A stretch of DNA of 64,000 nt. Source: Candidatus Schmidhempelia bombi str. Bimp (GTDB taxonomy: Bacteria; Pseudomonadota; Gammaproteobacteria; Enterobacterales; Orbaceae). Positions 8,028 through 64,000 of the stretch are shown one piece after another (the first letter of the stretch is position 1; every line of letters begins with the position of its first letter). Under the pieces are notes generated by a model. It did not search any database and was not told the origin of the DNA. It saw nothing but the letters and a program-made list of their open reading frames with translations. The stretch spans positions 1 through 64,000 of the forward strand of contig NZ_AWGA01000065.1 of the NCBI RefSeq assembly GCF_000471645.3, in the 5' to 3' direction. The translations under genes and the position numbers were made by a program.

Positions 8028-10895
8028 CTAGAGATCTTTAATAACAAAATACTGTTCTTGTAGCTTAATTTTATCGTCTTGATACGAGCTAAGTTTTTCT
8101 TTTTCTTTAGCAACTACCGCTTCAGGTGCTTTGTCGACAAAGCTAGCGTTTGATAATTTCCCAGTTATTCGTTTAATTTCAAGATCAATTTTCTCCATCT
8201 CTTTATTTAAACGAGTTAATTCTGTCTGTTTATCAATTAAACCAGCCATAGGAATAAGCAGTTCGGCACCATCAACTAATTTAGTTACAGATACGGGACC
8301 TCTATCGTTACCTTCTAAAATAACAATTTGTGATAAGCGTGCTAATGACTGAATAGACGTGACATTGTCACCTATTCTGCGATGTATTGTTTTCGAAACA
8401 TCTCGAACAAGTAACTCCAACGGTTTGCTTGGTGCAATATTCATTTCGGCACGGATGTTTCTGACAGCGATAATAACCTGTTTAATCCAATTGATATCAC
8501 TAATCGCTTGTTCATCATTTAGATTTTCATCATATTGAGGCATTGGTTGCAACATAATCGTATCAGCATTGATACCAGCTAAGCCTTTTACATTTTGCCA
8601 AATAGCTTCAGTAATAAATGGAATAATTGGATGTGCAAGTCGTAATAACGCTTCTAAAATAGAGATTAACGTATGTCTCGCCGCACGCTGCTGAGCCTCA
8701 TTACCATTGGCTAGCTCTGATTTAGTCAATTCTAAATACCAATCGCAGAATTGATTCCAAGTAAACTCATATAAAATACTCGCAGCCATATCAAATCGGT
8801 AAGTATCAAGTGCTTCGCGATATGCTTTAACTGTCTGATTAAATTCAGCAATAATCCATTTATCAGCTAAAGACAGATCCATGTCACCGCCTGCAAAACC
8901 GCAATCGAATCCTTCTGTATTCATTAATACATAACGGCTAGCATTCCATAATTTGTTACAGAAATTGCGATAGCCTTCAAGTCGTTTCATATCCCAATTA
9001 ATATCACGCCCAGTTGAAGCTAATGCGGCTAAAGTAAAACGCAAGGCGTCAGTGCCATGAGCATCAATTCCATTCGGAAATTGTTTTTCTGTGCGTTTAC
9101 GTATTTTATCTGCTAATTGAGGCTGCATCATATTGCCGGTACGTTTTTCTAACAATTCGTCAAGCGTGATACCATCTATCATATCTAAAGGATCAATGAC
9201 ATTACCTTTAGATTTAGACATTTTTTGCCCTTCTTCATCACGAATTAGTCCAGTCACATACACGGTTTTAAATGGAACTTGTGGTTTACCCTCTTCATCC
9301 TTAATAAAATGCATGGTCAACATGATCATTCTTGCGACCCAGAAGAAAATAATATCAAATCCAGTCACTAATACATCGGTGGGATGGAAAGTTTTAAGAT
9401 CATCGGTTTGTTCCGGCCAGCCGAGTGTCGAGAATGTCCATAGACCGGACGAGAACCAGGTGTCTAATACATCTTCATCTTGGGTTAACACAGTACTAGC
9501 ATTAATATGATAGTCGCGTCTAATTTCCTGCTCATCTCGACCCACATATACATTACCTTGTTCATCATACCAAGCAGGAATTCGGTGTCCCCACCATAAT
9601 TGCCGTGAAATACACCAATCTTGAATATCATTCATCCAAGAAAAATACATATTTTCATATTGTTTAGGTACGAATTGAATGTCACCTTTTTTAACTGCTT
9701 CAATCGCAACTTCTGCTAATGGCTTAGTCTTGACATACCATTGATCCGTCAGCATTGGTTCAATAACTACCCCACCCCGATCACCATATGGAATGGTAAG
9801 CGCATGTGGCTCGATCTTTTCTAAGATACCCTGTGCTTCAATAGCAGCAACAATCGCTTTACGTGCGGCAAAACGCTCTAAATGACGGAATGCTTGCGGT
9901 ATTTCATCGCTATAGATATCACATGGATTACCGTTTGTATCCAATACTTCTGCTTTTTCACGTATCTCACCATCAAAAGTAAAAATATTGATCATTGGTA
10001 ATTGATGGCGTTTGCCTACTTCATAGTCATTAAAGTCATGCGCGGGCGTAATTTTAACGCAGCCCGTTCCTTTTTCCATATCGGCATGTTCATCACCGAC
10101 AATTGGGATGGAGCGATTAACTAAAGGAAGAATAACATTTTTACCAATTAAATCTTTATATCTTGGATCTTCTGGATTTACAGCAACCCCTGTATCGCCT
10201 AATATCGTTTCTGGGCGTGTCGTAGCAACAACTAAATAATCGTGACCCTCTGCGGTTTTTACTCCATCGGCGAGTGGATAACGGATATACCACATTGAAC
10301 CGTTAACCTCTTTATTTTCAACTTCTAAATCAGATATCGCTGTACGTAACTTAGGATCCCAGTTAACTAAACGTTTTCCGCGATAAATAAGGTCTTCTTG
10401 ATATAAACGAACAAATACCTCTTTAACGGCATTAGATAATCCTTCATCCATGGTAAAACGTTCACGATCCCAATCAACGGAATCACCTAATCGACGCATT
10501 TGGCGGGTAATACTGCCGCCAGATTCGGCTTTCCATTGCCAAATCTTTTCTATAAACGTTTCCCGCCCATAATCATGGCGAGTTTTATTTTCTTCTGCTG
10601 CTATTTTTCGTTCTACCACCATCTGCGTCGCAATACCGGCATGGTCAGTACCTGATTGCCATAAAGTATTTTTACCTTGCATTCGATTGTAACGAATAAG
10701 CGCATCCATAATGGTTTGCTGAAAGGCATGCCCCATATGTAAACTACCCGTGACATTCGGTGGTGGTATTGCAATACAATAACTTGGTGCGGATTTGTCA
10801 CCATTTGGTTTAAAATAGCCTTGTGTTTCCCAATGTTGGTAAATAGGCTGCTCAATCTCTTGTGGATTATAGGTTTTGTTGAGTGTATTTTTCAT
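8028..10895 (-). CDS. valS: Valyl-tRNA synthetase
   Basis: Class I aminoacyl-tRNA synthetase charging tRNA-Val, with an editing domain. From the ATG chosen here the protein is 955 residues, near the E. coli 951. It carries [13 protein letters not shown] (HIGH motif), the editing-domain segment [33 protein letters not shown], and [10 protein letters not shown] (KMSKS). The C-terminal coiled-coil tail ([19 protein letters not shown]) is present. The frame is open to a TTG at 10937, but residues [12 protein letters not shown] from 10895 align with the known start. It is third in the order pepA-holC-valS, separated from holC by about 300 bases, so it may also have its own promoter. Confidence 0.97.
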
Positions 10896-11193
10896 ATTTA
10901 TCTGTGATCGATCGGTTAATAATTTATAAGAGGTCAACTAAAGTTACGCTAGCACCACAATTAAACGATGTTACGCAAAATTACCCTAATTATTTAGCTT
11001 ATGATTTTTTATACTATTATCATTGAAAATAGCTATTTTTATTATAACTTATATTATAATGCGTCAAAAGTCATTCTATTTCAATGCCGTTATATAGACA
11101 TATTAGTCATATTTACTACGCTTAGGTCAGCGTCTATCTTCAAACTAAGTACGAGTTCCGTCATTAATAAATTAAGTAAAAACGTCTTTCTAT

Positions 11194-11679
11194 TTATATT
11201 AATGATTCTGATTCGTCTATTTCAACAGGTATTGTTTTTAGATGAAAACCTATATTTTTATAAGCTTTATAACGTTCTCTAGCTAATTGTTTTTCTGCTT
11301 CATCAAATGGGACAAAATCAATAATATCTTGATACATAGCAGAAAATTCAGCAACTTGCTCTTGTAAATTGATTAATAATTGCCTTGCACCTGTTGCACG
11401 CCGCTCAGGCCAACAAATCTCTACAGGCGCCCCTCCTCTAGGTCCTTCTCCAGCTAAATTATGCGGCAGAAAATGCGCTGTATCAAGTTGCCATAAAAAC
11501 TCATCTATTTTTTCCGCCTGTATTTGTGATTGACAAGCAATTAAGACCCGTTGTCGTTTTTGCCAAGCGATCAGTGCTTTTTGACAAGCTAAGTATTCAT
11601 GAGCAAGGATGGTTTCTCCTTGCTCTATTTGATAACTTTTTCCTGATTGGGAAAAAAGATAAAATAGTACTTTCTTCAT
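11194..11679 (-). CDS. holC: DNA polymerase III chi subunit
   Basis: Clamp-loader accessory subunit that links the replisome to SSB. It has 161 residues against 147 in E. coli; the extra length is an acidic C-terminal tail. The family signature FLPHNLAGEGPRGGAPVEICWP is intact, as is QLARERYKAYKNIGFHL near the end. The ATG directly abuts the pepA stop (no spacer), so the two are translationally coupled, as is conserved across gammaproteobacteria. Confidence 0.94.
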   Translation of the reverse strand: MKKVLFYLFSQSGKSYQIEQGETILAHEYLACQKALIAWQKRQRVLIACQSQIQAEKIDEFLWQLDTAHFLPHNLAGEGPRGGAPVEICWPERRATGARQLLINLQEQVAEFSAMYQDIIDFVPFDEAEKQLARERYKAYKNIGFHLKTIPVEIDESESLI

Positions 11680-15634: not shown

Positions 15635-16645
15635 TCATGATGAGTGAGGAAACGTTATACCAAAATGACGATAAGCGTGTGGAGTTGCAATTCGTCCACG
15701 TGGTGTACGCTGAATAAAACCTTGCTGAATTAAGTAAGGTTCAAGGACATCTTCAATGGTTTCGCGTTCTTCTCCAATCGCCGCAGCAAGATTATCTAAT
15801 CCAACCGGCCCACCTAAAAACTTCTCAATAATCGCCAATAATAGTTTTCGATCCATATAATCAAAACCTTGAACATCGACATCTAACATATCAAGTGCTT
15901 GATTAGCGATTTCTCCAGTTGCCGTACCATCAGAACAGACCTGCGCAAAATCTCTAACCCGCCTTAACAAGCGATTAGCGATGCGAGGGGTTCCTCTAGA
16001 ACGTTTAGCAATATACAGTGCCGCCTCATCCGTTAAATTTAAATCAAGATATTTAGCGCTACGACTAACAATATATTGTAAGTCTTCAACTTTATAAAAT
16101 TCAAGACGCTGTACAATACCAAATCGATCTCGTAATGGTGACGTTAACGAGCCAGCACGGGTTGTAGCACCAATTAAAGTAAATGGTGGTAAATCAATTT
16201 TGATTGAACGAGCGGCTGGCCCTTCACCAATCATAATATCGAGTTGATAATCTTCCATTGCTGGATAAAGGATCTCTTCAACGACAGGCGATAAACGATG
16301 AATTTCATCAATAAAAAGTACATCATGAGGCTCAAGATTGGTTAGCATAGCCGCTAAATCACCCGCTTTTTCAAGCACAGGCCCTGAAGTTGTTCTTAAA
16401 TTAACATTCATTTCGTTAGCTACAATATTGGCTAATGTCGTTTTTCCTAACCCAGGTGGACCAAAAATAAGCAAATGATCTAGTGCATCACCGCGTTGTT
16501 TTGCTGCTTGAATAAAAATTTTCATCTGCGCTTTAACATGAGACTGCCCGATATACTCATCTAATAATTTAGGCCTGATGGCTCGGTCTATTGTTTCATC
16601 TTCATGTTTTGCCACAGGAGAGATCAATCGATCTGCTTCTATCAT
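15635..16645 (-). CDS. ruvB: Holliday junction branch-migration helicase RuvB
   Basis: AAA+ ATPase motor of the RuvAB complex that drives branch migration of Holliday junctions. The 336 residues match E. coli. Walker A is [12 protein letters not shown], Walker B is LFIDEIHRL, sensor 1 is [19 protein letters not shown], and the C-terminal winged-helix domain ends with [17 protein letters not shown]. It follows ruvA with a 33-base gap and is presumably cotranscribed from the LexA-boxed promoter. Confidence 0.98.
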
Positions 16646-16678
16646 AAAACCTTCTTATCTTATTTACTATGGTTACAT

Positions 16679-17290
16679 TTATAAGGCAGCCTTTAGTGCT
16701 TCCTTAATTAGGGTCTCACTATCTATATCAGGACGCATAAATTTACTGACCATTTTACTCGCCTCTTGTGGTTTATATCCTAATGCGGTTAATGCAGAAA
16801 TAGCTTCGAATTCAATCGTTTGCTGTTGATGAGCTACCTGATTCGCTGCTGGGGATAACGAGGTTAATGATTGCATCGGATCACCTAAGCGTTTTAATCG
16901 ATCTTTCATTTCTACAATCAGTCGCTCTGCCGTTTTTTTACCAACACCAGGAAGTTTAACTAATGTTGTAATTTCGCCTTGTTCCACTGCTTGCATAAAT
17001 TGCTGCGCAGACATACCAGATAAAATAGCTAACGCTAATTTAGGTCCCACGCCATTAACTTTAATCAACTCTCTAAATAAAGCTCGTTCCTGTTTGTGAT
17101 TAAAACCATATAATAACTGCGCATCTTCTCTTACCACAAAATGCGTAAAAATAATTACTTCTTTACCATCATCGGGAAGCTCATAAAAACACGTCATGGG
17201 CATAGCAACTTCATACCCAACGCCATTAACTTCAATTAATACGTCTGGCGGTTGCTTCGCCAAAATAATACCGCGTAAATGTCCAATCAT
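16679..17290 (-). CDS. ruvA: Holliday junction DNA-binding protein RuvA
   Basis: Tetrameric Holliday junction-recognition subunit for RuvB, 203 residues as in the family. It has the N-terminal OB domain ([15 protein letters not shown]), tandem helix-hairpin-helix motifs ([13 protein letters not shown] and [16 protein letters not shown]), the acidic pin region, and the C-terminal RuvB-contact domain ([13 protein letters not shown]). A LexA box sits 70 bp upstream of the ATG. Unlike in many relatives, it is separated from ruvC by more than 800 bases. Confidence 0.98.
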
Positions 17291-53239: not shown

Positions 53240-53317
<78 letters not shown>

Positions 53318-53334
53318 ATAACATCCAGTATAGT

Positions 53335-53475
53335 CCGTTAAAGTCCGCAAAACCTAGAGTTTGCAAGTAGTTTAACGGTTTTACTTTCCAGTATAGAACA
53401 GAATAATCCAGAGTCATCCAAGAGAATTTAGTCCAAAAAACAGTCCAAAAACGGAATGAGTTTTTTTGACTAGTC
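53335..53475. repeat. Left-end repeats of the island (likely integrase arm sites)
   Basis: A nested inverted repeat occupies 53335-53378: CCGTTAAA/TTTAACGG outside and GCAAA/TTTGC inside. Copies of AGTCCAAAA follow around 53431-53476. Similar AGTCC(A/G) pairs and AGTCCAAAA pairs occur near the right end. Short repeats at both ends of a tRNA-inserted element fit integrase arm-binding sites; that role is inferred. Confidence 0.55.
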
Positions 53476-53534
53476 CAAAAATTATGTTATTGTGATAATG
53501 TATTTTTTGAACAGTTCGTCTAAATATTGACTAG

Positions 53535-53984
53535 CTATCTTTAGAACAAGTTTATCATCTGGCCAATGCTGTTGGTGAACTCAATGAAGAGGGAGAAGTC
53601 GAACTTTACCAACTCTTTCAAATTGCTTTGGCTTTTGATGATGGTCATCAACTACAAATACTAAATTTTAAAAGTTTGTGGTACTACAAAAATGCTATAC
53701 CTGCGTATGAATCTGCTGATAATGTTTATGCCACTAAAGATGGGATATTTACTGTAGATATCAATGAGGCAAAAAAATATTCCAAGGCATTGTGTAAAGC
53801 ATTAGCCAGTAATGACATTGAAACAGCTTCGAAGCATTTATGTGAATACATTTCAAAGAAACTCTATAAAATTTTTGAAGTAGATCTTAGAGAAAAGCTC
53901 ATCAAGCAAGTGGCAAAAGACTTACCTCAACAATCATCAATGATTTTTGAGGCGTTAGATAATAACGAGATAGAACTATATTAG
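53535..53984 (+). pseudogene. 5'-truncated gene at the left end of the island
   Basis: An open frame runs from just after a TAG at 53532 to TAG... TAG-type stop at 53984, reading LSLEQVYHLANAVGELNEEGEVELYQLFQIALAFDDGH in overlapping pieces and ending NNEIELY. There is no ATG or ribosome site; the only candidate start is a TTG at 53628 inside the conserved-looking region. TAG at 53532 is one base from CAG, so this looks like the 3' part of a longer gene lost by a stop or truncation. A good terminator follows. The family is not recognised. Confidence 0.55.
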
Positions 53985-54014
53985 ACTTAGTAATTAAAAA
54001 TAAAATCAATACAA

Positions 54015-54048
54015 AATGGTAGATAGGAGTTGCAATCTATCATTTTTT
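54015..54048 (+). terminator. Intrinsic terminator after the truncated gene
   Basis: A 10-bp stem AATGGTAGAT / ATCTATCATT with one G-T pair is followed by T6. It lies 31 bases after the stop at 53984. Confidence 0.75.
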
Positions 54049-54270
54049 ATATTTGCTTTTAATGAAGCGAATGCTTGTGGATCACACTTCAGTAGTTATT
54101 CTTGCTACATTGTCACTATTTATGAAAAAATGATGAAGTCTTTATCCTCAAATTTATCCTTGGTTACCATAAATTCCTCGTACAAAATGTACGAAATAAA
54201 ACAAATTGGATCAATTTGAACAACACCATGAATAATTAGCGTCTGTTAGATTAAATTCGAGCTACTACAC

Positions 54271-55026
54271 TTAAAATATTCTTTTTAACGTACTTAATGT
54301 TTTTTGAACATTTGGGTAACTCAGCATTGAGAAATGATCTCCACCTCCAGAAAATATTTTAACATTACCATTTACCTGATTACACCATCTTTCTATATTT
54401 TTATCGGTAAGATCTGATGCTTTTTCTGATTTGATTAAATATACATCAGTAGCTAAATAACCATAATTGATTAGTTCATTATAAAAATATTTATAAGTTG
54501 AATGTCTTTTCATAATTTTATTATTTAGTACATCTGGATCTAACTTAGAATATTTTTTCAATTTTCTTATAAACCCAACATCAACCAGATAATTATAAAA
54601 ACCATCATTAAACTCCTTTAATTCAATATGATCCATTATTATTTTTTTATCTCGAAGTGGAGCATCTAGAACTATCAGTTTATCAATTTTTATACTGACA
54701 CTTTCTAATTTCTTAATAACTTCAAAAGCAATATTAGCTCCTGCTGAATATCCCATAATTGAAATTGATTTATTTTTTGAAAGTTTAAATATGGTATGAC
54801 AATAAATATCAATTAGTTTTTCAGGAAAAATATCTTCATAAAAATCAAAACAATAAAAAGAATAATTTTCAACTCTTCCTATAATGTTTTCATAAACAAT
54901 CCCCCAGCCAGATAATGGGGGGAATAGAAAAATTATATTTTTATTATCATCAAAATCTTTAGACTTTATTTCTAAATTTGAACTACTTAAGATAAAATCG
55001 AATTTATTAATTATGCACATATTCAA
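54271..55026 (-). CDS. Stand-alone type II thioesterase (alpha/beta hydrolase)
   Basis: A 251-residue hydrolase of the thioesterase family found with nonribosomal peptide and polyketide pathways. FLFPPLSGWGIVY gives the oxyanion region, S94 is the nucleophile in MGYSAG, the acid is probably D121 in VLDAPL, and H231 in GGGDHFSML completes the triad. The TTG at 55026 has an AAAGG site seven bases upstream, better placed than the ATG at 55020. It is the last gene of the island operon, 28 bases after the DUF5680-like gene. Such enzymes release or proofread thioester-bound intermediates. No carrier protein or synthetase is present here, so its substrate is unclear. Confidence 0.8.
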   Translation of the reverse strand: MNMCIINKFDFILSSSNLEIKSKDFDDNKNIIFLFPPLSGWGIVYENIIGRVENYSFYCFDFYEDIFPEKLIDIYCHTIFKLSKNKSISIMGYSAGANIAFEVIKKLESVSIKIDKLIVLDAPLRDKKIIMDHIELKEFNDGFYNYLVDVGFIRKLKKYSKLDPDVLNNKIMKRHSTYKYFYNELINYGYLATDVYLIKSEKASDLTDKNIERWCNQVNGNVKIFSGGGDHFSMLSYPNVQKTLSTLKRIF

Positions 55027-55054
55027 TATGTTACCTTTATGATGAATTTTTTGT

Positions 55055-55558
55055 TTAAATTACTTTCATTTCTTTATTATATCTACCTCTTATCATTCCC
55101 CCTAAATAGTATCTAAAACATATCTGTTCATTACCTTCCCAAATTTCCTCATGCCCAGTAAATGACATTAAATCACCTAAAGTACAATTTTTGTAGGTAT
55201 ATGTGCCGTTTTGATAAAGAGTTGGACCTCTAATAGGTAGCTGATTATCTACCTCGTTCAATGCTAATCTTAAAAAGTTGAAAACCTTTTGTTTATTGTC
55301 ATCATATAAGGAAAATATCCCGCCTCTATAGCTCATTCCCCACACAGGGATGCCTTTATACCTAACAATTTCCTGTCCCATATCAACAAACTCGCCGAAG
55401 TAACGATCTTCATAACTAAATTCATCTTCTTCATATAAATATTTTTTGGAAAAATCACTGGAGCGAATTTTTAATCTATCCCCTCCAGCATAACCATGCA
55501 ACTTTGCTTTAAGGAGAAAAGATTTAAATTGATGTAAATATAGCTCGTTAATATCCAT
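55055..55558 (-). CDS. DUF5680-like protein
   Basis: A 167-residue soluble protein. FLLKAKLHGYAGG (14-26), DFSKKYLYEEDEFSYEDRYFG (35-55), RYKGIPVWGMSYRGG (66-80), IRGPTLYQNG (109-118) and the final CFRYYLGGMIRG follow a pattern I recall for DUF5680, a small domain of unknown function. Placement in that family is from memory. An AGGTGA site precedes the ATG. It lies 17 bases after the second radical SAM gene, so it is probably a pathway component, for instance a substrate binder or a tailoring factor. Confidence 0.65.
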   Translation of the reverse strand: MDINELYLHQFKSFLLKAKLHGYAGGDRLKIRSSDFSKKYLYEEDEFSYEDRYFGEFVDMGQEIVRYKGIPVWGMSYRGGIFSLYDDNKQKVFNFLRLALNEVDNQLPIRGPTLYQNGTYTYKNCTLGDLMSFTGHEEIWEGNEQICFRYYLGGMIRGRYNKEMKVI

Positions 55559-55575
55559 TGTTATTCACCTTCATT

Positions 55576-56406
55576 TTATTTACGATGTTCAATCACATTT
55601 CCTAATCGCAAGTGAAGTCCATATTTATCTAACAAACCTCGAATAAAATCGTCATTTATTTGGATCTTGTTTTTTTTCAAAGATAGATAGGTGCTTGCCA
55701 ACGTTTTATCATATGAAACTATTTTTTGTTTTATATAAGGGCTTAAATTTATATGTTCTACATAAACAGATTTAGTACCTGTTTGTGCAACAAGTGAAAT
55801 AAGAGATTCTAATTCAGAAGGATTTTGAAGAAGATGGGGTAATATTGGTCCAAGAAATGCATAAGTTCTAATATTATGACTATTCAGTTTATGTAATGCA
55901 TCTAATCTGCTCGTTATAGATGGCGCTTTTATCTCTAGTGCTCGGCTTATACGATCCTGAGATGAAGTAATAGTAAAACCTACTTCAACATTTTTTAAAC
56001 CTTGCAAAACATCTATATCCCTAAGCACTAAAGCTGACTTTGTGAGTATGCTTATCAAACCAGGGTAATTGGTATTTTTTAATATTTCAAGCATATTCCT
56101 CGTTAGTTGATATTTTTTTTCAAGAGGTAAATATGGATCTGTTACTGAGCTAAAAAATATTGTTGAGCTCGAATTTTTATCTAAAAATTTTTTTAATTGT
56201 TTATCAAATATCTCTACTGAGTTTTTTTTTATATAAACATAATTCCCCCAGTTTTCGACAGGCTCGCCAATGAATCTCCCCATAAAGCTTGCATAGCAAT
56301 ATAAACAGGAAAAACTACAACCAATATAGGGATTTACAACATAATCAGTGTCTGGTAATTTAGATTTTATAATAATATTTTTGCAGTCTATTTCATAATA
56401 TTTCAT
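55576..56406 (-). CDS. Radical SAM protein, SplB/COG1533-like
   Basis: A 276-residue radical SAM enzyme. The cluster motif is C30-x3-C34-x2-C37 in NPYIGCSFSCLYCYASFM. FFSSVTDPYLPLEKKYQLTRNMLEIL and VEVGFTITSSQDRISRALEIKAPSITSRL follow the pattern of the spore-photoproduct-lyase-like COG1533 group. No extra cluster-binding cysteines are seen at the C-terminus. Enzymes of this shape act on varied substrates, so the reaction is unknown. The ATG has an AAGGAT site inside the end of the MATE gene, four bases after which it starts. Confidence 0.82.
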   Translation of the reverse strand: MKYYEIDCKNIIIKSKLPDTDYVVNPYIGCSFSCLYCYASFMGRFIGEPVENWGNYVYIKKNSVEIFDKQLKKFLDKNSSSTIFFSSVTDPYLPLEKKYQLTRNMLEILKNTNYPGLISILTKSALVLRDIDVLQGLKNVEVGFTITSSQDRISRALEIKAPSITSRLDALHKLNSHNIRTYAFLGPILPHLLQNPSELESLISLVAQTGTKSVYVEHINLSPYIKQKIVSYDKTLASTYLSLKKNKIQINDDFIRGLLDKYGLHLRLGNVIEHRK

Positions 56407-56410
56407 AAAG

Positions 56411-57757
56411 CTATCCTTCTTTATACTTATTTGGTAGGGTTATATTATGAAAATATAACAATGTAATTTTTGATGCTATAATCGCCGCAATAATCAGCGC
56501 AAACCAAAATCCTTTCACCCCAAACTCACCATCGAAAGTCAAGAAATAACCACCACATAATCCTATTCCCCATAGGCAACTACCTAGAATAAGAGTTGGT
56601 ATAAATGTTTTATTAAAACTTCGCAATACGCCACTAACTATTGTATAAATCGCATCAAAAAAATGATAACAAGCAACAAAGCCAATTAATAAGGATGCGA
56701 CATCACATACAATTTGATCAGTTGTATAAAATGAAGCAATCTGTTTTCTTAGCAAAAAAAGCAATAAACTATATATAAAAGCAATTAAAACCCCTGATTT
56801 GATACATGAAAACCCTACTTTTTTTGCTAATTGATTTTCTTTTACCAAATAACTCCCCACAATTACTGAAGAGGCACTACCTATTGACAAAGGGATTAGA
56901 TAAGAAATGTAAGACACATTCGCAGCGATTTGATGGCTAGCCATTGTAGTCAATCCCAAATTAGCAACCAATAGACCTATAATAGTAAAGGAGCTATAAT
57001 CTACTAAGAAAGTGAGGCCAATTGGGCCTCCAGTTTTTAATAAAAAAAGTTGTGTCTTAGTTGAAATTTTGAACGAAATTGACAATGGGATTTTCTTTTT
57101 AAAAAAGATACAAATAGCTATTATAAGAACTAACCACGACGCACAAACGGTTCCTAATGCGCATCCATTAACTCCCATAGCTGGTATGGAATAGAATCCT
57201 AAAACAAAAAGATAAGTAAGTACACCTTTGATCGCAAGTCCGATAAAATTTGTAAACATAATTATTTTAGGCTTATAAATTCCTGAGGCATAGGCAAAAA
57301 TAATTTTATAAATTAATAACGCAGGAACACCTATAATTAAAATTGTTAAATATTCATTGACTTTAAAAAATGACTGTTCATCTAGATGACTAATGTTAAT
57401 CAGTGGCTCTGCGTTTAATAATATAAAACAAACAATAATCGAAAGTATTATTGCTAACCAGAATCCTTGCGCAGTTAAATTTTTTACATTTTCAAACCCT
57501 CCGTCACTATATTTTTGAGCGTACAGGGGGGGTAATATTAACAAAATTGCAGAAAATCCAATAAAAATAGTAAAAAAAACATTATCCCCAACGCCCACAA
57601 TAGCAATGTCAAGAGAAGAGAAATGCCCAACAATTATCAAGTCAATAATGGAATAGCTTGTAACAGCCAATTGGCCTATAAATATAGGCCAAGCCTGATT
57701 TAATAGTAGCTTTGGTATATTCATCTTATTTTTGTTCATGGAATTAGTGTATGTCAT
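56411..57757 (-). CDS. MATE-family exporter
   Basis: A 448-residue protein with twelve predicted membrane helices in two six-helix halves. The N-terminal QAWPIFIGQLAVTSYSIIDLIIVGHFS and the second-half TGGPIGLTFLVDYSSF and NLGLTTMASHQIAANVSYISYLIPLSIGSASSVIVG are typical of NorM-like MATE transporters, which export drugs or secondary metabolites using Na+ or H+. It overlaps the end of the flavoprotein gene by 14 bases; a later in-frame ATG at 57739 is possible. Being inside the operon, it probably exports or gives immunity to the product. Confidence 0.85.
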   Translation of the reverse strand: MTYTNSMNKNKMNIPKLLLNQAWPIFIGQLAVTSYSIIDLIIVGHFSSLDIAIVGVGDNVFFTIFIGFSAILLILPPLYAQKYSDGGFENVKNLTAQGFWLAIILSIIVCFILLNAEPLINISHLDEQSFFKVNEYLTILIIGVPALLIYKIIFAYASGIYKPKIIMFTNFIGLAIKGVLTYLFVLGFYSIPAMGVNGCALGTVCASWLVLIIAICIFFKKKIPLSISFKISTKTQLFLLKTGGPIGLTFLVDYSSFTIIGLLVANLGLTTMASHQIAANVSYISYLIPLSIGSASSVIVGSYLVKENQLAKKVGFSCIKSGVLIAFIYSLLLFLLRKQIASFYTTDQIVCDVASLLIGFVACYHFFDAIYTIVSGVLRSFNKTFIPTLILGSCLWGIGLCGGYFLTFDGEFGVKGFWFALIIAAIIASKITLLYFHNITLPNKYKEG

Positions 57758-58937
57758 ATACTAGAGCCTTTGCTGGACATAAATCATGGCACATTGAGCA
57801 ACCATCACAATTTTTATCAAAATTATACGGAATACTTTTAAACGAGTTACAAGTAACCATATTTTCACATATATTACATTTAACGCATTTATCCTCTAAT
57901 AGTGTTGTTTTAACTTGTAAAGTTTCTCTACTTTTTATTTTACCAAAGTGTTCTGGATAATGTTCTAAACTGACTCCGATTAAATCAAGTAATGTATTAT
58001 ATTCATTTTTATCCAAAAATTTATTTAAACTTTCCTTTAACCCATTAATATGTTGAAATCCTTTTTTCATAATTACAGACGTCAAATGAATTGAATTAGC
58101 ACCAAGCATCAGACATCTAATTATATCTTGCCATTTATCTAATCCACCACCAGCAGATAAAGATAAATTAGTCTTGGAACGTAAGATTTGTGTATAATTA
58201 AAGGTAAAAGGCAGTAAGGGCTCTCCTGCAACTACACTATTTGATGCTCCAGTTAACGAATCGTATAGATCTCCATCAAAAATGGGTCTTCCTTTGTTAG
58301 AAATATCAATGTATGGTTGGACATTTATAGAGTCAAGATAAATAAGTCCCCCTACATTACAATTAGTTATAATACCATCAATCAAATCATCATCCATTCT
58401 AATGTTTAATTTGGGAAATACAGGTATCTTAACTGATCGAGCTAATCGATTTATTATTTCTATCACTCTATAAATGTCCGCATTACACATTTTTTTTAAG
58501 TCTAAGTAAAAAAAATCTATTTGTATCCCATCCGCACCAGCTTTTTCAGCCTCTTTAAAAAGCGATAACCAGATATCAATACTATTTTCTTCAAAAAAAT
58601 ACGGATAAAAAAGAGATGCAATAATAGGTATATCACACTGACTTTTGGCGTTTTCTATCAACCTCATTCCATAATCCATTGGTAAAATTTCTTTTAAATA
58701 AGTAGATTTTAAATAATTTCCATATCCTCTAATCCATTTATACCTACGTATATCTGTTGGCTTTATTGATTCATTAGAGTTATGCGCACCAATTGATTTT
58801 GAAATGACCCCTCCAGCATTCTCCTCTTCAGCTCGTTTTATATCGTCGAGATACATAGATGCAGGGCCTGCACCTATTAAAAAAGGATTTTTTAGCTTAA
58901 TGGGTCCTAATGAGGTTGATAATCTTTTATCCCACAT
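57744..58937 (-). CDS. PreA/dihydroorotate dehydrogenase-like iron-sulfur flavoprotein
   Basis: A 397-residue TIM-barrel FMN oxidoreductase fused to a C-terminal two-cluster ferredoxin. The barrel starts SLGPIKLKNPFLIGAGPAS and ends with the FMN phosphate site SAGGGLDKWQDIIRCLMLGANSIHL. Clusters are suggested by C351-x2-C354-x2-C357-x5-C363 and C377-x2-C380-x2-C383-x3-C387-P. This is the layout of the PreA subunit of dihydropyrimidine dehydrogenase. Where that family has N-x-S-C-P with the catalytic Cys, this protein reads DFFYLD (141-146), so the acid/base residue is missing and the reaction is probably different. A GGAGG site precedes the ATG, 20 bases after the first radical SAM gene. It may supply electrons or reduce a ring or double bond. 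Confidence 0.8.
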   Translation of the reverse strand: MWDKRLSTSLGPIKLKNPFLIGAGPASMYLDDIKRAEEENAGGVISKSIGAHNSNESIKPTDIRRYKWIRGYGNYLKSTYLKEILPMDYGMRLIENAKSQCDIPIIASLFYPYFFEENSIDIWLSLFKEAEKAGADGIQIDFFYLDLKKMCNADIYRVIEIINRLARSVKIPVFPKLNIRMDDDLIDGIITNCNVGGLIYLDSINVQPYIDISNKGRPIFDGDLYDSLTGASNSVVAGEPLLPFTFNYTQILRSKTNLSLSAGGGLDKWQDIIRCLMLGANSIHLTSVIMKKGFQHINGLKESLNKFLDKNEYNTLLDLIGVSLEHYPEHFGKIKSRETLQVKTTLLEDKCVKCNICENMVTCNSFKSIPYNFDKNCDGCSMCHDLCPAKALVYDIH

Positions 58938-58957
58938 ATTATTCCTCCAATTTCATT

Positions 58958-60088
58958 TTATAAGTTATTATAAAGCGGATCAGCTGAATCAAATATTCGT
59001 TCAATAGGTAAACTTTTTTGCGAATTAAAGAAAGAAAATATTCTACAATGGCCTACATTTTCGTTAACTTTAGATAGCATGATTTTATATTTTTGAGAGT
59101 CAAAGATTTCGGATAATGTCTGATTACTTAAATTTCCCAGCACCCACTCTTCACCTAATGGTTTACCTGATGCGTTATAAGCCCAAGGCGATGCTAGTAA
59201 TGTACCATTGGGGGTAATCCCGAATGAATTAGAAACTAAATCACAAGGATTTTCACCTGGATGTTTATTAAATTGAGGAAAAAGATGTTTCAATGCACAT
59301 TGTAGTTTTATCTGTGGTGATCCATATTTAGATTCTTGTTCAAGTAAAACTTCAATTGCTAATTTGCACTGTTCAATAGATGGTATTTTTTCTTTTAACA
59401 ACATTCCCCGACCGACGGGAAATAAACGCATAATTAAAAGTTTATCAATTCCTCTCTCATGTAATTTTTTATATAATCTTACTAGATGAGCTCGATTAAT
59501 AATATCTGTTGTTAATGGTAACTCGGCCCTAGTGCTACAATTGAGTTTGTGAAACTGCTCTCCTATTTTTAAGTTTCCAATTGCATAAGCATTAGGTCTA
59601 TTTGCAACATCATCTATATCTTCAGCATCAAAAGTAAAATTATATTCACCCACGAGTGATGCTAACATTTTTATATCATATTTCGCAATTCCAAGTCCCG
59701 TTGCAGTTAAAGTTACGTTCTCTTTCCCTAATTTATTTGATGCATATTTAAGAAGTTCAATATTTTGTGGGTTAATTAGTGCATCACCACCTGATATATC
59801 AATTTTTACATTAAAGCCTTCAAGATTATCAATAACTTGTTTTTTTTGTTCTAAACTCAGTTCCTCTTTATTATTTATTAAAATATTAGTTGCTTTTTCA
59901 TAAATATTTTCTTCCTCACTAAGTCGCGGGTAAATTTCTTCTTTAGAAAGAGATTCACTACGAATAATGAGACTATTATTCTTTTTCTTAACATGTAAAG
60001 CATCAACGCAACATATAGCACAATCCCATGGACAAACTCTAGTAATGTTATAAATAATGTCAATTTTTCTGTTTGATTGATTTTTCAT
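58958..60088 (-). CDS. Radical SAM enzyme with degenerate SPASM-like tail
   Basis: First gene of the island operon, 376 residues. The SAM cluster motif is C19-x3-C23-x2-C26 in ITRVCPWDCAICC; the GGE-like motif is ISGGDALINP (98-107). An insertion of about 65 residues lies between them. The tail keeps C264, C282 and C348, and GITPNGTLLASPWAY copies the SPASM pattern G-x-x-x-x-C, but with Ser (S300) in place of the Cys. It may carry one auxiliary cluster or none. SPASM-type enzymes commonly modify ribosomal peptides. A GGAGG site and a strong promoter lie upstream. Confidence 0.82.
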   Translation of the reverse strand: MKNQSNRKIDIIYNITRVCPWDCAICCVDALHVKKKNNSLIIRSESLSKEEIYPRLSEEENIYEKATNILINNKEELSLEQKKQVIDNLEGFNVKIDISGGDALINPQNIELLKYASNKLGKENVTLTATGLGIAKYDIKMLASLVGEYNFTFDAEDIDDVANRPNAYAIGNLKIGEQFHKLNCSTRAELPLTTDIINRAHLVRLYKKLHERGIDKLLIMRLFPVGRGMLLKEKIPSIEQCKLAIEVLLEQESKYGSPQIKLQCALKHLFPQFNKHPGENPCDLVSNSFGITPNGTLLASPWAYNASGKPLGEEWVLGNLSNQTLSEIFDSQKYKIMLSKVNENVGHCRIFSFFNSQKSLPIERIFDSADPLYNNL

Positions 60089-60103
60089 ATAAACTAACCT
60101 CCA

Positions 60104-60154
60104 TTACATTACTGTTAAGATAAATATTAATAAGTCGACACTAAAAATACCCAT
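60104..60154 (-). CDS. Possible 16-residue leader or precursor peptide
   Basis: MGIFSVDLLIFILTVM is encoded between the promoter and the first radical SAM gene, ending 15 bases before that ATG. It has no obvious ribosome binding site and is hydrophobic rather than precursor-like. It may be chance, a leader peptide or a tiny substrate. Confidence 0.2.
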   Translation of the reverse strand: MGIFSVDLLIFILTVM

Positions 60155-60175
60155 TGTTTTTGTAAGGATATTTTT

Positions 60176-60204
60176 ATTGTATAAAGAAAATATGCAAATT
60201 TCAA
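60176..60204 (-). promoter_or_regulatory. Promoter of the island operon
   Basis: On the minus strand TTGAAA and TACAAT are separated by exactly 17 bases, 87 bases upstream of the first radical SAM gene. Each hexamer differs from consensus by one or two bases. No operator palindrome is seen around it. Confidence 0.65.
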
Positions 60205-60380
60205 TACATGGTACTGTTAAATTATTTTTATATTAAATTTGGCCTATAAATCATTAATTTTGAATTTTAGGTGCAAACGGATTGCTGAGTTTATAAAGGA
60301 GATTATTTAAATCTTGAGGCCATATTATTCATAAATATAGACAAAATAGTTAACATCATTCCAGCTATTTAGATACTGTT

Positions 60381-60700
60381 AGATGTTAAAAGACTAAAAG
60401 AGCTTGAAGATGAAAATTTTAAACTTAAAAAGTTGTTTGCGGAGTCAGCCTCGAAAACCATGCCATGAAGGAGAATTTCGTAAAAAAGGGTTAGTGATGG
60501 CCGAAAAAAAATTGTGTGCATATTCGCTTATTCAAGCGGGTTTATCGGTCATAAAAGCGTGCAAATTAGCCTCGCTATCGTGGGCAACCTGACGGTTATC
60601 TATCGTGACTGTAGAAGAGCCTTCAATCACCGAGCTTGTGTGATATCCATCGTGTTCACTGCCTACAAATCACGAACTAAAATGACCCTTGGCATATAAT
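60381..60700 (+). pseudogene. IS3-family transposase relic
   Basis: One frame reads KRLKELEDENFKLKKLFAESASKTMP, the leucine-zipper C-terminus of an IS3-type OrfA. It then shifts to MAEKKLCAYSLIQAGLSVIKACKLASLS, like the start of OrfB, and shifts again to TVIYRDCRRAFNHRACV. Stops and frame changes show it is dead. No terminal inverted repeats were identified. Confidence 0.65.
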
Positions 60701-60759
60701 TATCCTTAAATCTGTTTTAAAGAAAAGTCGACATCATCATCGGCTTTAAGCTATCTGGC

Positions 60760-60972
60760 TTACCGGCTAATAACAAACTCTTTGCCGTCAAAACGGAATT
60801 TGGGGGCCAGTGTATTGCACTTATCAATATCGAAATTTCTCCCCTTGTGCTCTGGCGGACAAAAGAGCAAAGGTGAGGACTCTATTTGCACCAATTTATC
60901 ATCTAAAGATAGCTTGATTTGTCTATTGGTAAAATTTGAAAGTTTTTCTTGAAATGATATTACTTTCCGAAA
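60760..60972 (-). pseudogene. Gene remnant of unknown identity
   Basis: An open frame without a start codon reads SSPLLFCPPEHKGRNFDIDK and continues CNTLAPKFRFDGKEFVISR to a stop. The composition is protein-like, unlike the surrounding AT-rich DNA, so it is probably the 3' end of a lost island gene. Confidence 0.4.
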
Positions 60973-61204
60973 TCAAGATAAAATTATTTGTAATGAGAAA
61001 AATAGTGATATCATCAAAATGATGATTTTGTTGACATAATTAAGTTTAAAATTTATTAAATCGATTTTTATCTTAATTTGAGTTTATCTGCGGATAGTGG
61101 ATTTCGACCTGATTATATTTTATTCAAGATGTTAATAAATAGCTTGTATTATAATAAATTAATATTCTAAAATGTATAAGTAAGGATTAGTAAAAAAGTG
61201 GTTT
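60973..61204. other. AT-rich spacer inside the island
   Basis: No coding frame, RNA gene or strong repeat is seen between the gene remnant and the right-end repeats. Confidence 0.4.
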
Positions 61205-61214
61205 TTGTACTTTG

Positions 61215-61281
61215 AGTCCGTAGAAGTCCATAAACATCCATTAAGAACCGCTAAGAACTAGTCCAAAAAATAGTCCAAAAG
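61215..61281. repeat. Right-end AGTCC repeats of the island
   Basis: AGTCCGTAGAAGTCC at the left of this stretch mirrors AGTCCGTTAAAGTCC near attL, and TAGTCCAAAAAATAGTCC mirrors the AGTCCAAAA pair there. The shared pattern at both ends supports a single integrated element. Confidence 0.55.
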
Positions 61282-61344
61282 GTTAGCAAAAGCAATATTG
61301 GTGTCTGGATAATTCTTTTATATACAACAGGTTATAAAGCTGGA

Positions 61345-61369
61345 TTCGAACCTCGTTTCCCGCTCCAAT
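61345..61369 (+). repeat. attR: right 25-bp copy of the tRNA-Gly 3' end
   Basis: Exact copy of 53293-53317. The upstream tRNA half is absent here, so this is the duplicated core left by integration rather than a second tRNA gene. Confidence 0.88.
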
Positions 61370-61721
61370 TCAAAATGTGTATGCCAAGTATTTTACTAAA
61401 ATATAAAAGTTAATAGTTTTTAGTTAATAGTTAATTTTCTTTCATATACTGATACATTTACTTAAATGCACCAACAGTTACTTAAATTTAGTGCAATTCT
61501 AATTCGATCTAATTGACTCTTATCGTTTTAAACGAATCTCTTATTTTGCATACCAATCCTAGCTTTTAAGCTGATTTCTAAAGGAGAGTCTTATTATAGC
61601 CTTAACTGAAATTGTTGTTCGGAATACTAAACAAAAAGATATACTTTCCTGGAGTTGGTACAATTAGCGTGTAAAAAGCTAAAAAGGACAATTATCTAAT
61701 TTATCCAGAATAGCATTAGTA
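61370..61721. other. Gene-free region between the island and the autotransporter
   Basis: No gene or RNA is recognised in about 350 bases. The original chromosomal DNA downstream of the tRNA operon resumes here. Confidence 0.4.
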
Positions 61722-61774: not shown

Positions 61775-64000
61775 TTAAAACATATATTTTATTCCAGCCA
61801 TACACAGGGTTTCACGTTGGCTATAGCTACCGATTAGTTGTGACACGTTGCTCCATAAATGTAAATTAGCTTTGATATACCCTTCGAAACCGAGTTTAAT
61901 TTCAGCCATATTATTAGTACCTTGTATATTGTTGGTGGCATCAGTCATATTAACGCCATATTGCTTGGTGTTATGTAACCAGTTAACTTCTGCAAACGGC
62001 TCTATCCGGTTCGTAGAGTCGCTTCTTATATTGTATCGCTCTACAGAAAAACGCATACCAAGATTTGTTTGGATATTACCATTGCCTTTGCCATAAACAT
62101 GAGTGCCATTATGTTCGATATGATCATTAGCTTTAACATCTAACCATTTAATCTGGAACTGTGGACGAATATACACATCGCTTTGTATACCTTCTGCGGC
62201 TAAGTATGAGGCTGCATTATATTCATAACCTGTTTCTAAAGATGCAGTAATACCCTGACTGTGATATTTTTCCTGAGCTAGCTGTTCTCCTTGAACAGTA
62301 TTGTGAAACCAGTTATACATTATCCAACTATCCACATAAGCGCCAATACGTTGTTGGGTATCTTGATACCATGTGCTATAAATACCTACGCTATAACCTT
62401 CCACCTTACCATAGGAACTATACCCAGAAAGATTGTTGCGGGTGTTGCTGTTTTGTTTAGTATAACCACTGGTTAAACCAAAATACCACTGATCTAGATC
62501 AGTAAATGAGTCTGTCAATATATCTCCACCGATCTGAAATACGGTGTAATCAGCCGTAGTTTTTAATTGTTTATCAGACATAGTATGTTGGTTATGGCCT
62601 CTAACAATTCTTGTCCATACATCGTTATATTTACTTTCTCCAGTGATAGGATCAACGAACCAGTCACTACCTTGTCGATCTTGTAAACGCATATTAAATA
62701 CGGTGTTAGCTGTAGCTAAATTAATGGCATAACTTCCTGCTTCTGGGCGAGAAATGTGAATATTGTTATCTGGTTTTACCTTACTGGTCAAATACCAGTT
62801 TTTCATATTATTACCCTGAGCCGTTCCTTGTTGTAGATAATATTCATAGTTACCAGCAACAATACGCCCATCTTGCACAAAAGCGCCTTGGTCTGAACCA
62901 CCTGTTGTAGTAATTAGTTCAATACCCTGCTCTGTTTTTGCACCAAGCCCTCCACCATTTATCACTCTAACCTTGGTAATCCCCTTTGCAGTTCCAGTAA
63001 TTTCCAGTTTATCCGTTGTACTGTTATCATCACCAAGGATCGCGCCAAACTGCACAGTACCGCCATAACCCATCCAATCACCATTTTGGACATAAGTTTG
63101 CCCTTCACAATTTTGGCAATTATTGAGGATCAACATACCGCGATTATCCATATTACCTGTTACCGTGACTTTTTCTACTTTGCTAGTTGCATTTAAATCA
63201 TTAATAAGAATTATTCCTTCATTATTGATCTTTTTGATTTTCTGGTCCTTACCACTTAGATTTAAAATAGCGCTTTGGTTTGGACCTTCTCCTTTGGCAA
63301 TATTTAGCTTAGAAGTATTGACTATCGCATCATCGATACCTAATTTAAGCATACCGTTGTTGATATTCGTTTCACCAGTATAGTCATTCTTAGTAGAAAG
63401 TTGTAGCGTTCCAAGACCATCTTTGGTTAAACTTTTCCCATCCCAATTATTATTGTTATCACAATCATTATTAGTTAATTTTACACGAAGATTAAGAATG
63501 CTTCCCTGTTTTAAATCAAATGTTCCATGACTATCGCCGCCAATATCATTCCATTTTAGTCCGTATGCTAAGGTTTTCTTTTTATCTGTTAATATTGCTC
63601 CAGCGTAGTCTTTCGCACCTGTCGTTAACAAATTATTAGAGATATGTTTATAATTACCGATAATCCCATTATCCGCCTTTGCTAATATAATATCTTGTTG
63701 ATCCCAATCGGTAACATTAGTATTAATTTTTGTCTTATCAAAAATGATTTTGTTTGCATGTAAGCGTGCACCATTATCAAAAGTTAGGGATGTTTCGTTA
63801 GTGAATTCGGCATTTTCTTTAAATGAAACTTGTTTGCCAGAAAGTATCACTCTCCCGTTATTGTTCACTATTAAATTACCTTCAATGGTGGTTTCTGCTT
63901 CACTGGTAATGTGTAACATATTGTCAGAACTAGCTGCAAGCACTATATCACCTTGGATTTTTGATCCTGCTTGTATCGTTAAGCTATTTTTACCTGAAGA
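61775..64000 (-). CDS. Autotransporter (partial, C-terminal part)
   Basis: The last 741 residues of a type Va secreted protein; the N-terminus lies beyond the window. The passenger is a beta-helix rich in Asn/Gly strands with an autotransporter-associated repeat (KDGLGTLQLSTKNDYTG). The C-terminal barrel occupies roughly the last 270 residues (from VWTRIVRGHNQ) and ends GIKYMF with the terminal Phe used for outer-membrane insertion. A Pertactin-like segment precedes the barrel. The passenger has Cys pairs (NNCQNCEG and NDCDNN), unusual for autotransporters. The open frame continues to the window edge, so no start is given. The function is probably adhesion to host tissue or to other bacteria. 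Confidence 0.9.
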   Translation of the reverse strand, partial: SSGKNSLTIQAGSKIQGDIVLAASSDNMLHITSEAETTIEGNLIVNNNGRVILSGKQVSFKENAEFTNETSLTFDNGARLHANKIIFDKTKINTNVTDWDQQDIILAKADNGIIGNYKHISNNLLTTGAKDYAGAILTDKKKTLAYGLKWNDIGGDSHGTFDLKQGSILNLRVKLTNNDCDNNNNWDGKSLTKDGLGTLQLSTKNDYTGETNINNGMLKLGIDDAIVNTSKLNIAKGEGPNQSAILNLSGKDQKIKKINNEGIILINDLNATSKVEKVTVTGNMDNRGMLILNNCQNCEGQTYVQNGDWMGYGGTVQFGAILGDDNSTTDKLEITGTAKGITKVRVINGGGLGAKTEQGIELITTTGGSDQGAFVQDGRIVAGNYEYYLQQGTAQGNNMKNWYLTSKVKPDNNIHISRPEAGSYAINLATANTVFNMRLQDRQGSDWFVDPITGESKYNDVWTRIVRGHNQHTMSDKQLKTTADYTVFQIGGDILTDSFTDLDQWYFGLTSGYTKQNSNTRNNLSGYSSYGKVEGYSVGIYSTWYQDTQQRIGAYVDSWIMYNWFHNTVQGEQLAQEKYHSQGITASLETGYEYNAASYLAAEGIQSDVYIRPQFQIKWLDVKANDHIEHNGTHVYGKGNGNIQTNLGMRFSVERYNIRSDSTNRIEPFAEVNWLHNTKQYGVNMTDATNNIQGTNNMAEIKLGFEGYIKANLHLWSNVSQLIGSYSQRETLCMAGIKYMF

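Follow-up and report, generated by a model that had tools for sequence, protein, structure and literature searches.

A mobile operon of two radical SAM enzymes, a DUF5680 protein and three further genes in Candidatus Schmidhempelia bombi

The 64,000-nucleotide stretch of contig NZ_AWGA01000065.1 of Candidatus Schmidhempelia bombi str. Bimp analysed here (positions 1 to 64,000; the window) carries an operon of six genes. In order of transcription, these encode a SPASM-like radical S-adenosylmethionine (SAM) enzyme, an Fe-S flavoprotein resembling dihydroorotate dehydrogenase (DHOD) and PreA, a MATE transporter, a radical SAM enzyme resembling spore photoproduct lyase (SPL), a DUF5680 protein and a thioesterase (genes 1 to 6, Table 1). 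The operon is real, mobile and undescribed, and three of its genes (1, 4 and 5) form a core that is conserved in distant bacteria. The literature searched gave no pathway with this set of genes, as a first-pass annotation of the same DNA had supposed. The whole may well be a horizontally acquired pathway for the biosynthesis and export of a small molecule, being neither ribosomal nor dependent on an assembly line. A more tentative proposal concerns the core alone: it is possibly an undescribed mobile system common to a gammaproteobacterial family and the ultra-small Patescibacteria, which makes a new class of small molecule, perhaps nucleotide-derived, by two radical steps and without ribosomal or assembly-line precursors.

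Table 1. Features of the operon and its island, with positions in the window
Feature	Position	Strand	Basis
Gene 1, radical SAM protein with SPASM/twitch-like C-terminus, 376 aa, CPWDCAICC motif; core gene	58958..60088	-	Pfam, NCBIfam, homologues
Gene 2, DHOD-like flavin mononucleotide barrel with C-terminal two-[4Fe-4S] ferredoxin domain (PreA-like), 397 aa	57744..58937	-	profiles
Gene 3, MATE family efflux transporter, 448 aa	56411..57757	-	TIGR00797, PF01554
Gene 4, SPL-like radical SAM protein, 276 aa, relative of PA0069 and mobile-pair B; core gene	55576..56406	-	profiles, tree
Gene 5, DUF5680 protein, 167 aa; core gene	55055..55558	-	PF18931 (1.8e-24); alignment with Patescibacteria members
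Gene 6, stand-alone alpha/beta-hydrolase thioesterase of the non-ribosomal peptide synthetase type, 251 aa, TTG start	54271..55026	-	PF00975 (4.3e-11)
Leader with Shine-Dalgarno sequence and candidate promoter (TTGAAA-17-TACAAT)	60089..60204	-	promoter not above chance for the region
Integrated island	53293..61369	.	direct repeats and comparison with genome G276; integrase section missing here
attL-type repeat, 3' end of tRNA-Gly(GCC)	53293..53317	+	exact 25-bp repeat; tRNA at 53240-53315
attR-type repeat, right island end	61345..61369	+	exact repeat; homology with genome G276 ends here

The operon and its island

The six open reading frames (ORFs) are packed head to tail on the minus strand between 54271 and 60088, with intergenic distances of 20, -14, 4, 17 and 28 bases in order of transcription. 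Shine-Dalgarno-like sites are found at GGAGG before genes 1 and 2 and at AAGG-type sequences before genes 4, 5 and 6, with a weak site before the MATE gene. In these respects (six co-directional genes, gaps of -14 to 28 bases, ribosome sites before most genes) the first-pass annotation was accurate, and its protein families held in profile searches apart from the refinements for genes 2 and 6 given below. Its span of 54271-60204 is right for the genes as far as 60088, beyond which lies only the leader. The candidate promoter at 60204-60176 agrees with the consensus at 10 of 12 positions and is a plausible promoter for the operon. However, 37 promoter-like sites were observed in the operon region against 47.3 expected from shuffled sequence, and therefore the match is no evidence for the "one good promoter" that had been annotated. 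The G+C content is 30.2% in the operon and 34.2% to its left.

The operon sits just beyond a tRNA-Leu and a tRNA-Gly gene. The island around it is bounded by an exact 25-bp direct repeat (TTCGAACCTCGTTTCCCGCTCCAAT), one copy of which lies at the 3' end of the tRNA-Gly gene, as in an element integrated at a tRNA site. In genome G276, which belongs to another genus of the same family, 7,833 bases of the island block are present at 99.94% identity, and the homology ends at 61370, the first base past the right repeat. Because of these att-like repeats and the almost identical block in another genus, the cassette is seen to move as a unit: an integrative element, with the operon as its main cargo, has recently moved between genera. 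No ORF between the repeats in the window encodes an integrase. The copy in G276 retains at its left end a section of about 3.9 kb, missing from the window, with a tyrosine integrase, a ParA-like ATPase and a LysR regulator. Gene 1 is carried by two of the 44 genomes of the family, and among 398 sampled genomes of the phylum only by that of the window; the complete six-gene set was found only in the window genome and G276. Among the matches listed for E. coli genomes and plasmids, none was to gene 1 or island DNA, and only tRNA DNA was matched.

The copies in the window and in G276 differ at five positions, all of which fall in gene 1 or the leader (59013-60107 in the window; 15756-16887 of locus L030 in G276). 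The chance that five random changes would all lie within that 1.15 kb is about 7e-5. One difference is a change in the length of a T run that frameshifts gene 1 in G276, and another alters the Shine-Dalgarno sequence. This pattern suggests that gene 1 was specifically lost or switched by slippage in G276, with the other genes unchanged. An assembly error could account for the frameshift, but not for the clustering of the other four differences.

A remnant resembling OrfA of the IS3 family (KRLKELEDENFKLKKLFAESAS) is found at 60382-60460, just upstream of the operon, and may have helped to assemble the island. To the right of the island, an autotransporter-like ORF of 722 aa occupies positions 61775-63943. 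In G276, the island is adjoined by a long array of Rhs-type tip genes and small immunity-like genes (L121 and L122; 1232001-1272000).

A conserved three-gene core

Six short gene 1 peptides were scanned against one genome per species (84,980 species), and six relatives of gene 1 were obtained (L024-L029). At three of these loci (L025, L026 and L028, two labelled Parcubacteria and one a metagenome-assembled genome, MAG), homologues of gene 1, gene 4 and DUF5680 are directly consecutive, with identities to the window proteins of 28-30%, 38-39% and 32-39% respectively. The window keeps the same relative order, with genes 2 and 3 inserted between. At L027 (9107-10855), from a Patescibacteria MAG, genes 1 and 4 are fused in a 582-codon ORF and there is no DUF5680 gene; the fusion still contains the ribosome site of the second gene. 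The gene 1 homologue at L029 is 92-94% identical to that of L026. This locus (10031-11515, the same DNA as L119), from a MAG labelled Candidatus Geothermocultor, has a frameshifted and shortened gene 1 beside transposase-like sequence. The closest relative, with 43% identity, is found at L024 in a proteobacterial MAG.

The presence of the three-gene core in the same order at distant loci rules out a wholly chance assembly of the six-gene set. Conserved co-occurrence in unrelated hosts, which had been named beforehand as support for a real system, was therefore found for three of the six genes, in the same order at Patescibacteria-type loci; the full set recurs only in the near-identical copy from the same family. 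DUF5680 itself was found, mostly solo, in 36 genomes out of a sample of 287 of the Patescibacteria type. Since 20 solo loci show neither an adjacent radical SAM gene of the core type nor any single enriched neighbour, DUF5680 alone is not predictive of the core. When read by eye, the solo genes often adjoin NUDIX, ITPase-like and HIT genes, which resemble genes for enzymes that clean up nucleotides. No relatives of DUF5680 were found in phage records or in a scan of IMG/VR, and none of gene 1 in the IMG/VR scan. The same scan gave 12 loci for gene 4 (L132-L143), of which those put in the tree fall with pair B of the radical SAM mobile pair (see below); one of the 12, L137, has MarR, pair A and pair B genes beside phage-like genes.

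Several observations weigh against the biosynthesis-and-export pathway proposed above. The L024 genome has no match to gene 4 or DUF5680, so gene 1 can occur alone and may work without its core partners. By tree and identity, the SPL-like and DUF5680 proteins of the window show no clear preference for the core versions over solo homologues, and for this reason the core, if not ancestral, could have come together on two occasions. The PreA-like, MATE and thioesterase genes were never found with the core outside the island, and the G276 island carries gene 1 in frameshifted form.

The encoded proteins and their possible product

Gene 1 encodes a protein with Pfam matches to SPASM (1.6e-5, 25.5 bits) and Radical_SAM (1.9e-4). 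It resembles NirJ, AhbC and TIGR04053, with every NCBIfam match at or below 34 bits against cut-offs of 265-650. Its predicted structure, of low confidence (mean pLDDT 61), matches SkfB, SuiB, viperin, PqqE, anSME, MoaA and BlsE, and the modelled fold is that of a generic radical SAM enzyme with no sharper assignment; a PDB sequence search with the gene 1 profile gave only NifB (0.008). The three cysteines of the CxxxCxxC motif for the SAM cluster (C19, C23 and C26) are invariant in all six aligned rows. In the C-terminal part, C282 is invariant and C348 is present in five of the six rows. At position 264, the window protein and L024 have Cys, together with Ser at position 300; the other four rows have His at 264 and Cys at 300. 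Only C264, C282 and C348 are common to the window protein and its nearest relative in this part, and the seven-cysteine SPASM domain is absent from the six-row alignment. This fits the retention of one auxiliary Fe-S cluster with three Cys ligands, not the two clusters of SPASM enzymes, because C282 and C348 are kept and C264 replaces His exactly where C300 is lost.

Gene 2 encodes a flavoprotein whose best relatives are only 22-31% identical, annotated PreA proteins being 23-24% identical. Eight cysteines at 351-387 are enough for two [4Fe-4S] clusters. The score against the PreA model NF006183 is 117 bits, below the cut-off of 335; the SCPxxM loop of true PreA is missing and the active-site loop is shortened. 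The first-pass label of PreA-like Fe-S flavoprotein is thus apt for the DHOD-like barrel and the PreA-type ferredoxin tail, but not for the active site. The gene 3 product passes the MATE model TIGR00797 with 231.1 bits against a cut-off of 147.4.

Gene 4 has its CxxxCxxC motif at 30-37. Its product is related to PA0069, to Rv2578c and to mobile-pair-B proteins but falls outside the clade of pair B; its long branch prevented any closer placement in the SPL-like tree. No function for any of these relatives was found in the literature searched. PDB sequence searches with the gene 4 and DUF5680 profiles gave no match. Fold assignment of DUF5680 also failed (model pLDDT 68; best Foldseek E 0.019; VIA, Z 5.5 over 58 residues). 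Several rows for the GntR effector (UTRA) domain or chorismate lyase (Z 3.4-3.7 over 85-100 residues) are a lead only.

Gene 6 is closest to the termination domains of non-ribosomal peptide synthetases (NRPS), aligning over the whole domain with the thioesterase (TE) of SrfA-C (E 1.8e-21). Its catalytic triad is intact, with Ser, Asp and His positions in the motifs GYSAG, VLDAP and GDHFS. It is a thioesterase, as first annotated, but not specifically one of type II. The host genome (G000; assembly 99.6% complete) has a sole PP-binding protein, of 86 aa, and therefore no NRPS or polyketide synthase (PKS) assembly line. Since this is the only carrier protein, gene 6 would act on a coenzyme A (CoA), AcpP or other ester. 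Dependence on an NRPS was rejected: there is none in G000, and in G276 a carrier-rich ORF of 4,963 aa lies about 500 kb from the island. No supported candidate for a precursor peptide was found among the small ORFs of the island, and the Pfam scan of the six genes gave no PqqD/RRE or peptidase domain. The carrier scan and the small-ORF checks thus bear out the first-pass statement that an NRPS, a PKS, a dedicated carrier and a clear precursor are all wanting. PADLOC gave weak matches only, and a known defence system is unsupported.

We infer that the six genes act in one pathway, of which the steps, substrate and export role would be as follows. The products of gene 1 and then gene 4 would each perform a radical reaction, assisted by DUF5680, on a small substrate that comes from primary metabolism and is not a peptide. 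The PreA-like protein would reduce a ring or enone double bond or supply low-potential electrons, while the thioesterase would release or hydrolyse a CoA- or AcpP-bound acyl group (a thioester or ester). The MATE protein would pump the product out. The host cassette would thus be the conserved core extended by a PreA-like reductase, an NRPS-type thioesterase and a MATE exporter.

The most interesting alternative is a nucleotide-based product, which is weakly supported by hints that are weak and independent of one another. Gene 1 would then be viperin-, MoaA- or BlsE-like, the PreA-like protein would reduce a pyrimidine-like ring, and the product would be either a nucleoside antimetabolite that leaves by way of MATE or an antiviral chain terminator that acts inside the cell. 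This is judged unlikely. The gene 1 model does match viperin, MoaA and BlsE among others, but SkfB, PqqE and anSME score equal to viperin, SPASM-type families fit better, and the confidence of the model is low. The viperin model NF038283 matches three of the six gene 1 family members, with a best value of 4.5e-8; the window protein is not among them at 0.001, and it is matched by pVip of PADLOC at 0.0018. PreA is a member of a pyrimidine-reducing family, although the SCPxxM active-site loop is absent from the protein of the operon. At L024, a MazG-like gene lies before the homologue, but its match is under the cut-off. The NUDIX, ITPase-like and HIT genes seen beside solo DUF5680 genes point in the same direction, whereas a nucleotide kinase is absent from the operon.

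A pathway for a ribosomally synthesized and post-translationally modified peptide (RiPP), with gene 1 as a SPASM maturase and the thioesterase-like protein trimming or cyclising the peptide, is improbable. It is suggested by the SPASM match and by fold similarity to SkfB, SuiB and PqqE; yet the island has no convincing precursor ORF, although one could be encoded at a distance, the Pfam scan gave no PqqD/RRE or peptidase domain, and the seven SPASM cysteines are lacking. In the Patescibacteria loci, no additional precursor-like gene is seen to separate or immediately follow the core genes. Of the two products proposed by the first-pass annotation, the exported small molecule is thus still favoured by inference, and the modified peptide has become less likely. 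A detoxification or resistance cassette, in which the redox enzymes would convert a toxin that enters the cell and MATE would expel the rest, is the least probable of these explanations. MATE pumps are mostly multidrug exporters. The cassette is mobile, and genes of the related mobile pair are also carried on plasmids, once beside a chloramphenicol acetyltransferase gene. However, it would be unusual for a resistance cassette to combine two radical SAM enzymes with an NRPS-type thioesterase, and genes 1, 2, 4, 5 and 6 match no resistance family in the Pfam and NCBIfam scans.

If, as proposed for the core, a small molecule is made, two radical SAM enzymes and one DUF protein would form a compact route that would escape searches built around assembly lines or precursor peptides. 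The chemistry is testable, as the core occurs both in ultra-small bacteria of very limited biosynthesis and on a recently transferred island, where the operon is 5.8 kb long, intact and bounded. DUF5680 also gains a conserved genetic partner.

Comparison with described systems

With the SPASM maturases (NirJ/AhbC, TIGR04053, PqqE, mycofactocin MftC and SkfB), gene 1 shares the core fold and weak SPASM similarity. Unlike them, it keeps three cysteines of a twitch-like site instead of the SPASM seven, scores far under the cut-offs and has no heme, PQQ or peptide context around it. Gene 2 has the domain order of the PreA subunit of NAD-dependent dihydropyrimidine dehydrogenase, in which a DHOD-type flavin barrel precedes the two-[4Fe-4S] ferredoxin domain, but differs in its model score and active-site loop and in the absence of a PreT partner gene from the operon. 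Gene 6 shares full-domain alignment and the catalytic residues with the SrfA-C TE domain of surfactin synthetase; in contrast to that domain, it is a stand-alone protein in a genome without an NRPS. The Gilliamella RiPP cluster described in PMC10673953, with its YcaO cyclodehydratase, radical SAM methyltransferase, ABC transporters and peptidases, is different from the six-gene operon.

Among described arrangements, the uncharacterised radical SAM mobile pair (pair B, TIGR04470, with pair A and MarR) comes closest. It is likewise mobile and patchy in distribution, and in it an SPL-like radical SAM gene stands next to a second radical SAM gene. Gene 4 is homologous to pair B, with 35-36% identity and 154.2 bits to TIGR04470. 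Membership of the mobile pair nevertheless fails on score (cut-off 410), clade and partner. Pair A, a radical SAM protein of only 220-230 aa, is of a different type, and gene 1 does not match it in the NCBIfam scan. Pair A lies directly upstream of pair B (with MarR in Firmicutes), whereas the gene upstream of gene 4 is that for MATE. Compared with the mobile pair, the operon dispenses with MarR and adds genes for the PreA-like, DUF5680, MATE and thioesterase proteins.

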